35,550 nucleotides of DNA, taken from Blastochloris sp. (GTDB lineage Bacteria > Verrucomicrobiota > Verrucomicrobiia > Methylacidiphilales > JAAUTS01). Where the stretch lies: assembly GCA_012031345.1 (NCBI GenBank), contig JAAUTS010000012.1:1-35550 (forward strand), written 5' to 3'. The notes beneath the pieces are model-generated. The model was given only the letters and a program-made list of their open reading frames with translations. It did no database searches and was not told the origin of the DNA. The position numbers and the translations under genes were made by a program. Each line of letters begins with the position of its first letter. The stretch's first letter is position 1. Of this stretch, positions 9,404 to 33,873 are shown in pieces.

Positions 9404-9503
9404 TTTTACCACAGAGAACATCGGGAACACAGAGTTTCAGCATGAGGCTTATCTTCTGAAAATTCAGATTTTCTCTGTGCCCTCTGTGTGCTCTGTGGTT
9501 CTT
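9404..9503. repeat. Inverted-arm element of 9-nt units (ACCACAGAG family) between tolQ-like and tolR-like genes
   Basis: Left arm ACCACAGAG|AACATCGGG|AACACAGAG; reverse complement of right arm ACCACAGAG|CACACAGAG|GGCACAGAG; inner palindrome TCTGAAAATTCAGA. Confidence 0.8.
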
Positions 9504-31247: not shown

Positions 31248-31330
31248 AGTTTGAAGTTTTAAGACAGAAATTAGTTTTCAGTGTTCAGTAGCTAGAAACC
31301 CGTAACTCGAAACTAGTAACTTCTTCCCCC
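31248..31330 (+). repeat. Dispersed repeat family R2, copy 4
   Basis: TTTGAAGTTTTAAGACAGAAATTAGTTTTCAGTGTTCAGTAGCTAGAAACCCGTAACTCGAAACTAGTAACTTCTTCCCCC, close match to copies 1-3. Confidence 0.8.
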
Positions 31331-31333
31331 TCT

Positions 31334-31879
31334 ATGCCAAGAAACATTGTTTACTTCGACTTGGAAACGCAGAAAAGCGCCCAGGAGGTGGGAGGCTGGG
31401 GCAACATTCGGGACATGAAACTGGCCATCGGAGTTACCTACAGCACCGCCTTGGGAGGCTACAGCATTTATCATGAGAAGGATGTGGCGGACTTGATCAA
31501 GGAGCTGCAACGGGCGGATTTGGTGGTGGGATTTAACATTCTGCGTTTCGACTATACGGTGCTGGAGCCCTATGCCTGCTTTGATTTTTCCCAGGTGCCC
31601 AGCTTGGATCTGATGGTCAGCATTGAGGAAAAAATTGGTCATCGTATCGGTCTGGACGCAGTGGCGGAAGCCTCCCTGGGCATCAACAAAACCGCCGATG
31701 GCATGGAGGCCCTGAAATGGTGGAAAGAAGGGCGCTTGATGGACATCGCGGAATACTGTTGTTACGACGTCAAAGCCACCAAGATGGTCCACGAGTTCGG
31801 AGCTCAGGAGGGACGGGTCTTCTTCCAAAGCAACAAAACCAAACTCCGCCAGGAAGTGCCGGTGGAGTGGACGCTTTGA
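31334..31879 (+). CDS. RNase H-like fold protein (predicted 3'-5' exonuclease / helicase-associated)
   Basis: IVYFDLETQKSAQEVGGWGNI; ADLVVGFNILRFDYTVLEPY; SLDLM; GRLMDIAEYCCYDVKATKMVHEFG: DEDD-type acidic motif arrangement. Confidence 0.75.
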   Translation: MPRNIVYFDLETQKSAQEVGGWGNIRDMKLAIGVTYSTALGGYSIYHEKDVADLIKELQRADLVVGFNILRFDYTVLEPYACFDFSQVPSLDLMVSIEEKIGHRIGLDAVAEASLGINKTADGMEALKWWKEGRLMDIAEYCCYDVKATKMVHEFGAQEGRVFFQSNKTKLRQEVPVEWTL

Positions 31880-31885
31880 GTGGAG

Positions 31886-32482
31886 TCACCATGAAGATCA
31901 GGAAGACCATGAAGGAGTATGAGAGACCCGAATCTTTGTGTTCCTGGCCTTGATGGAGGTGGCGCGCCCCGGATGGAGTTCTCCGAGTTGTCACATCGTG
32001 TGATTGGTTGTGCGATTGAAGTTCACCGCCACCTCGGTCCCGGACTCTTGGAATCAACTTACGAACAATGCCTCGCGCACGAAATAAAACTACAGGGCTT
32101 GCAGTTCCATCTCCAGCATCCGCTTCCAGTGGGATACAAGGGACTACAGTTAAGTTGCGGCTATCGCGTCGATATCCTGGTCCATCAACAAATCATACTG
32201 GAACTCAAAAGTGTCGAGCGTCTGCTTGGCGTCCACGAGGTGCAACTGCTTACTTATATGAAGTTGGCTGAGATACGGCAGGGGTTTCTGATTAATTTTA
32301 ATGTCAAACGGTTGAAAGATGGACTCAGGAGTTTTGTTTTGTAATTTGCCCGGAAAAGCGAGGCTGACTTGCCGGAATGGATTCAAAAAGTGAACTTGAA
32401 GACCTGTTGAAACAGATCCGGCACCACCCATTCTTTTAACCCAAACATCTTCATGTTCTTCATGCCCTTCATGGTTATAAAT
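31886..32482. mobile_element. Putative mobile element: GxxExxY gene bounded by inverted arms of 9-nt CATGAAG units
   Basis: Left arm ACCATGAAG|ATCAGGAAG|ACCATGAAG|GAGTATGAG (31888-31923); right arm (32444-32480) reverse complement ACCATGAAG|GGCATGAAG|AACATGAAG|ATGTTTGGG. The GxxExxY ORF lies between; the element starts ~8 bp after the upstream stop codon. Confidence 0.6.
31973..32344 (+). CDS. GxxExxY protein (PD-(D/E)XK nuclease-like family)
   Basis: MEFSELSHRVIGCAIEVHRHLGPGLLESTYEQCLAHEIKLQGLQF..YRVDILVHQQIILELKSVERLLGVHEVQLLTYMKLAEIRQGFLINFNVKRLKDGLRSFVL; name-giving GLLESTY motif. Confidence 0.92.
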   Translation: MEFSELSHRVIGCAIEVHRHLGPGLLESTYEQCLAHEIKLQGLQFHLQHPLPVGYKGLQLSCGYRVDILVHQQIILELKSVERLLGVHEVQLLTYMKLAEIRQGFLINFNVKRLKDGLRSFVL

Positions 32483-32761: not shown

Positions 32762-33873
32762 ATGACTGATTCTCGTTTAGCTAGGCAGACTGCGGAGAGG
32801 CTCATTGGATCCAGAGCCCAACTCTTGAAATACAATGGATTGGTGGGTTTCGACGGTTTTGTCGATACAATCGTGGAGGTGGTGGATCAAAGGCAAAGCG
32901 TGACCAAATACACGCCGTTCCGTTCCATCAAGGCCTTCGCCAAGCGCGTGGACAGTGCCGCGGGCAAAAGTGCCAACTTTGAAACGGTCAACACTTTGGA
33001 GAAACTCGGCGGCAACGGCCCCATCATGGCCTTCGCCCTCAGCACCCTCGGTGCCCCCATCGAATACCTCGGCATGGTCGGTTATCCCAAGGTTCACCCC
33101 GTTTATGTGGAATTCGCCAAACGCGCCAAAATCCACGGCATTACCGAACCCGGCCTGACCTCCGCCTTCGAGTTCGGTGACGGCAAGCTCATGTTCGGCC
33201 AGCACGGCACTGTGCATGAAGTGAGCTGGGAAGTGATCAAAAACGTTTCGGCGACAAAAATTTCCGCAAGTTGTGGAACAACGCCAACTTCATCGCCATG
33301 GTCAACTGGACCATGCTGCCGCACATGTCGGCCCTTTGGAAAAAAATCCTGAGCGAATTCAAACCCGGCAAAGACGAGAAGCGCAAGGTGCTCTTCTTTG
33401 ATTTGGCCGATCCGGCCAAACGCATTGATGCCGATTTGTTGGCGGCGCTGAAAATCATCGGCGAGTTCCAACAATATCATGACGTGATTCTGGGGCTGAA
33501 TGAAAGCGAAGCCCTGCATGTGGCCAAGGTTCTGCGTTTGAAGAAATTCCCCCGCAGCCAAAAAGGTTACGCCGCGCTGGCCGGAGCCATCCGCGAGAAG
33601 TTGGTGCTGCACACCGTGGTGGTGCATCCTATGGAATTCGCCTGCGGTGCGGACGCGGAAGGGGAAGCCTTCGTGACCGGACCTTACACGGCCAAACCCA
33701 AAATCACCACCGGGGCGGGAGATCATTTCAATGCCGGGTTCCTGATTGGAAGACTGCTGGGACTGAGCCTGGCCCACTCCCTGCAGTTGGCCGTGGCCAA
33801 TTCCGGGTTCTATGTGCGTCACGCCCAGAGCCCCAACCGCGAACAGTTGGTGCGCTTCCTGCAAACTCTTTGA
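32762..33873 (+). CDS. PfkB-family carbohydrate kinase-like protein, apparent frameshift at ~33240-33246 (A-run)
   Basis: GFDGFVDTIVEVVDQR; ETVNTLEKLGGNGPIMAFALSTLGAPIEYLGMVG; after the A-run the shifted frame reads RFGDKNFRKLWNNANFIAMVNWTMLP...TGPYTAKPKITTGAGDHFNAGFLIGRLLG. Confidence 0.88.

Follow-up and report, generated by a model that had tools for sequence, protein, structure and literature searches.

A GxxExxY nuclease gene between inverted arrays of 9-nt units is probably a small mobile element that carries its own recognition sites

The intervening sequence (IVS) in the 23S rRNA of Coxiella is an S23 element with 28-bp terminal inverted repeats that are cut by RNase III, and mobility of IVSs has been suggested (PMC4990558). 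In REP/TnpA-REP (RAYT) systems and REPINs, a nuclease gene is accompanied by cognate inverted repeats, gene-less palindromes are dispersed, and repeat and enzyme co-evolve (PMC8266576, PMC3116915). A GTAG-tagged REP family, a different repeat from the one described here, has been reported from Verrucomicrobia (PMC3733652). For GxxExxY, our literature search returned passing mentions only, PF13366 was scarcely mentioned, and searching by the letters of the repeat retrieved unrelated sequences only. No published description of the element was found by this search, whose scope excluded preprints and subscription journals.

The locus lies in a stretch of 35.5 kb, here called the window. A GxxExxY gene encoding 123 aa (31973..32344, + strand; stop codon at 32342-32344) is enclosed by a left arm of three 9-nt units with the core CATGAAG (31888..31914, + strand; ACCATGAAG, ATCAGGAAG and ACCATGAAG) and a right arm on the - strand (32449..32475; ACCATGAAG, GGCATGAAG and AACATGAAG in reverse complement). 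The unit of these arms is NNCATGAAG (9 nt), one unit being NNCAGGAAG. The inverted-repeat search returned 31888-31921 and 32442-32475 as 34 nt that are 79% complementary. Jointly the arms match 41 of 42 core positions of a 3×9 model, whereas the maximum in 2,000 Markov shuffles of the window flanks was 33, and a scan of the entire window ranked this pair highest. A chance repeat is ruled out by these shuffles together with the shifted control windows described below. The sequence-only reading had claimed inverted CATGAAG-unit arms with the GxxExxY ORF as their sole content, and both claims held; the fourth left unit that it had counted, GAGTATGAG, is no unit. The 3.18-Mb genome to which the window belongs contains three exact copies of the 15-mer ATGAAGNNCATGAAG, two in the right arm and one in a gene-less CATGAAG mini-element on contig C44.

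Like S23/IVS elements, the locus consists of a single small gene enclosed by inverted arms that are built from short tandem units (arm about 27-28 nt), and it shares with them locus-specific flavours and a patchy distribution. The units differ in length (9 nt for GxxExxY, 7 nt for S23), and the S23 protein belongs to PF05635 instead of the family of the GxxExxY nuclease. The IVSs known so far are located within 23S rRNA genes. By contrast, the window gene belongs to PF13366 and stands between two protein-coding genes; it is thus not a 23S rRNA IVS element. As in REP/TnpA-REP, cognate inverted repeats flank a nuclease gene and gene-less inverted pairs are dispersed. Membership in that group was rejected because the encoded protein is no HUH Y1 transposase: the enzyme is of the PD-(D/E)XK type, the arms are tandem non-palindromic heptamers instead of hairpins, and the GxxExxY gene is itself multi-copy and crosses phyla. 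By analogy, the element may work much like REP/TnpA-REP without being a member. Inverted ends, gene-bearing and gene-less forms and empty sites are also found in insertion sequences and MITEs, but here the ends consist of tandem units, no DDE or HUH transposase is encoded, and no target-site duplication was seen. A classical insertion sequence can be dismissed, as there is no transposase between the arms and no duplication at the pairs read. The initial impression that the locus resembles no IS, intron or retron needs correction: the layout is shared with S23/IVS, and the workings would be like those of REP/TnpA-REP.

The start codon of the gene is most likely the ATG at 31973 rather than that at 31919, because the PF13366 match begins at residue 23 of the longer ORF. 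PF13366 (5e-41; 140.2 bits, cut-off 22) and TIGR04256 (1.7e-42; 144.5 bits, cut-off 35) were the only family matches of the protein. In the alignment, G24, E27 and Y30 of the G-x-x-E-x-x-Y motif are invariant; E27, D67, E77-x-K79 and Q91 are present in the window protein and invariant across 71 relatives. An AlphaFold2 model (pLDDT 95.9) has a PD-(D/E)XK fold, and its structural matches include Cas4, Hjc and restriction enzymes, the nearest solved structure being Cas4 SSO0001 (4ic1; VIA-align Z 10.0, rmsd 3.2, 98 residues). The predicted fold and active site resemble those of Cas4 and other PD-(D/E)XK nucleases. Unlike with Cas4, no CRISPR context was noticed at the window locus, and no PDB chain matched the protein sequence at E<1. 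The protein thus combines an acidic residue and D...ExK with a restriction-endonuclease-like fold, as in the PD-(D/E)XK superfamily, and the earlier placement in PDDEXK_3 (PF13366) is borne out by profile matches, invariant site residues and modelled fold. The nuclease site is thus intact.

To ask how general the arrangement is, we gathered loci by protein alone, from PF13366 matches in 60 related genomes and tblastn-confirmed relatives in named GTDB genomes; copies found by place were then added, which gave an enlarged set of 144 loci from about a dozen phyla. A unit comprises a 7-nt core plus a linker of 1-3 nt. With strict, ungapped 9-nt spacing and a score of at least 34/42, a threshold reached by 0.2% of shuffles, arms were present in 79 of 109 loci. 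When linkers of 1-2 nt were allowed this became 96 of 110, and with linkers of 1-3 nt 109 of 144 (shuffles: 0/288). Unit lengths of 7, 8, 10 and 11 nt gave little or no excess at GxxExxY loci (n=109). At one common threshold, a simpler version of the test detected arms in 86 of 139 windows at the gene and in 0 of 399 control windows shifted by 900-1200 bp. About a quarter of GxxExxY loci, including L002 of the window genome, stay below the arm threshold. Among 194 sampled genomes of the phylum, 104 carry PF13366; three-unit CAYGAAG arrays occur in 18 of these 104 and in 2 of the 90 others, and the reversed control pattern was found in none of the 194. The co-occurrence of arrays and gene, which the sequence-only reading had proposed to look for in many genomes, is thus evident. 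At four loci (L113, L017, L052 and L239) a complete mini-element with both arms, not one arm per side, stands on each side of the gene; the two flanks of L239 are also direct repeats of each other over about 90 bp.

The core varies between loci (CATGAAG, CACGAAG, CGCGGAG, CGCAGAG, CACAGAG, CAGGATT, CGGAATT and others) but both arms of a given locus agree in it. Mapped onto a tree of 142 proteins, the five flavour groups require 16 changes, compared with 48.9 when labels are shuffled. One change on this tree suffices to separate CATGAAG (11) from CACGAAG (53) (SH-aLRT 96), whereas 27 are required for the phyla of these loci. In 55 of 59 cases, a protein's closest neighbour from a different phylum has an identical core; among paralogues within one genome the figure is 1 of 45. 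From these tree changes and this pattern of core sharing, arm sequence is a property of the protein lineage and is carried with the protein across phyla. A flavour set by the host genome is ruled out, as paralogues within one genome differ in core. Unrelated phylogenetic distributions of arms and gene would have spoken against the proposed association; arm sequence instead tracks the protein phylogeny.

Three residues, 4, 103 and 120, separate the CATGAAG and CACGAAG flavours. CATGAAG loci (n=13) have S4/Q103/S120, apart from one locus that deviates at 103 and one with a gap at 4, and a CATGAAG locus fetched later (G180 C70) also has S/Q/S. CACGAAG loci (n=39) have D or E at position 4, mostly T, I or V at 103, and R120. 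R120 accompanies C at core position 3 in almost all flavours; as it is near-universal, only the S120/CATGAAG side is informative for a link between residue and base. Because the CATGAAG clade represents one evolutionary event, these residues are a lead to the determinants of specificity, not proof.

At the window locus, the element stands between an RNase_H_2-domain gene (31334..31879, + strand; PF13482) and the N-terminal part of a ketohexokinase-like (Khk) gene (32762..33352, + strand; PF25270), which form the left and right edges of the empty site in relatives. The ketohexokinase-like gene is divided between overlapping ORFs (32762-33352 and 33271-33873), perhaps by a frameshift or a sequencing error. 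In genomes G002 and G010 the same two neighbours adjoin without arms or gene, and in G003 a different short gene occupies the site. Between genes that we take, from their translated flanks and not from database matches, to be purM and purH, four species (G001, G003, G004 and G005) carry the element; the site is bare in G006, with five bases between stop and start, and it holds a gene-less mini-element of another flavour in G002 and a single arm in G010. At the presumed xseA site, G005 and G001 have gene-less mini-elements, and G003 has a solo arm. Further empty sites correspond to L170 (in G003), L165 and L164 (in G006 and G002) and L162 (in G005 and G001). The search for empty and filled pairs in relatives that had been suggested was thus successful at the window locus, at purM|purH and at several others; the target-site duplications sought alongside were absent from all pairs read. 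Gene and cognate arms are one evolutionary unit, which is present or absent at orthologous sites and moves across phyla.

The element usually fills the gap that separates the stop codon of its upstream neighbour from the start of the gene that follows. At many loci only 0-10 nt separate the left arm from the start codon of the GxxExxY gene, and the right arm begins just past its stop codon, as might be expected if the locus were a resident regulatory or defence module whose protein binds the arms only to control its own expression, its patchiness being due to horizontal transfer and loss. We regard this explanation as very unlikely, since gene-less arm pairs lie at a distance from all GxxExxY genes, conserved operon genes occur with an empty site between them, and the purM|purH and xseA junctions have been re-used by different flavours. 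The window itself contains a gene-less mini-element of flavour CACAGAG (9408..9499, no strand assigned), identified by window scan and sequence, in which ACCACAGAG, AACATCGGG and AACACAGAG are followed by inverted CTCTGTG units ending in GGT; its units are 9 nt long, its inverted arms are about 38 bp apart and its joint score is 39/42. In G180, 53 exact three-unit arrays, mostly close inverted pairs, contrast with only four GxxExxY genes, one of which encodes a CATGAAG-type enzyme that matches the mini-elements and is 72% identical to the window protein.

Some copies belong to repeats that are larger than the element. Loci L216-L227 of G180 belong to a set of about 30 palindromic repeats that are nearly identical; the stretch conserved among them continues some 25-35 bp past the CATGAAG arms on each side. 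Loci L350-L353 of G185 include three copies of a GxxExxY element with an identical internal deletion, which removes the D67 stretch, inside a larger repeat, and on contig C90 of the same genome the flanking repeat occurs alone, without the element. Overall, the multi-copy repeats of these two genomes reach 25-110 bp beyond the arms, and the copies may have hitchhiked on another repeat. Because a dispersed repeat passes the arms in G180 and G185, what moves may not be just the stretch from arm to arm. The original proposal that nuclease and arms form one mobile unit is backed by association, flavour tracking and empty sites. These dispersed repeats, and the complete mini-elements on both sides of the gene at L113 and L017, would also suit arms that belong to an unrelated transposase as its MITE- or REP-like repeats and gather at GxxExxY genes, or a gene that rides on larger dispersed repeats. 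Such an origin is improbable in our view, given that GxxExxY lineage predicts flavour across phyla, that paralogues of one genome differ, and that genomes lacking the gene seldom have arms. No match was found among 50,697 phage records, which gives no indication of a phage origin; plasmid records yielded eight matches, all below 60% identity.

S23 (PF05635) genes from the same genome group are enclosed by inverted arms with 7-nt units at 22 of 27 loci and with 9-nt units at 1 of 27, and their arm flavours are locus-specific (L116, L117, L292-L319). The inverted-arm layout is thus wider than the GxxExxY nuclease. A probable S23-type gene-less mini-element, recognised from its sequence and a weak scan score (31273..31322, no strand assigned; 7-nt units AGTTTTC AGTGTTC ... 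CGTAACT CGAAACT AGTAACT), lies upstream of the GxxExxY element at a distance of about 560 bp.

The S23 parallel raises the question whether the element acts at the RNA level, like the IVS of 23S rRNA: pairing of the arms in a polycistronic transcript would give a stem for cleavage by RNase III or by the encoded protein, and the unit would be silent in the mRNA and spread via RNA. The shared layout at S23 loci and the RNase III-cut terminal repeats of the Coxiella IVS point in this direction, as does the strong co-orientation of the GxxExxY gene with its neighbours (left, 67 of 79 loci, 67:12; right, 63 of 78, 63:15; neighbours called by a longest-ORF proxy). If the arms were maintained as an RNA stem on the strand of the gene, differences of the G-U type between arms should exceed those of the A-C type. 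No such excess was found in 56 clean loci (53 G-U, 55 A-C), in a larger set of 125 loci (125 and 165) or in S23 arms (17 and 16). Linker dinucleotides match between the arms of a locus in 49-54% of cases and between loci in 40-43%, while cores match between arms in 88-95%. A base-paired RNA stem is thus unsupported by mismatch type and by linker co-variation, and spread at the RNA level seems unlikely, though less so than the two alternatives above. Because there is no G-U excess and linkers barely co-vary, we prefer double-stranded DNA sites: the arms fit best as repeated sites on DNA that would be bound in this form.

Taken together, our findings make it probable that the locus is a small, undescribed mobile element equipped with recognition sites of its own. 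We assign a probability of roughly 60% to a single-gene DNA element that moves horizontally and whose arms would be the cognate double-stranded recognition sites of the GxxExxY nuclease. In the proposed mechanism, the GxxExxY protein would bind the repeated heptamer of the arms and nick or cut there, and host repair or copying would subsequently insert or remove the unit. Gene-less copies would be served in trans. Expression could occur by read-through from the host operon, which would explain the orientation bias. Mobilisation may depend on something other than the nuclease activity, because S23, a different protein family, has the same layout with 7-nt units.

More tentatively, and with less than even confidence, we suggest that GxxExxY represents a class of autonomous bacterial mobile elements, in which a stand-alone PD-(D/E)XK enzyme reads a three-fold heptamer by a changeable code (e.g. 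residues 4, 103 and 120 for core base 3) and can move whatever DNA lies between two inverted arms; S23/IVS would be a sister class with 7-nt units. The PD-(D/E)XK superfamily is, to our knowledge, not known to mobilise DNA alone. If the suggestion is true, most autonomous mobile DNAs would be far larger than this element, and the common GxxExxY family would acquire a role and a substrate, together with a specificity code that can be tested. The natural pairs of enzyme and site variants could be used for studying how specificity changes in a small nuclease, and the S23 parallel may offer a way into the old question of the origin of 23S rRNA intervening sequences.
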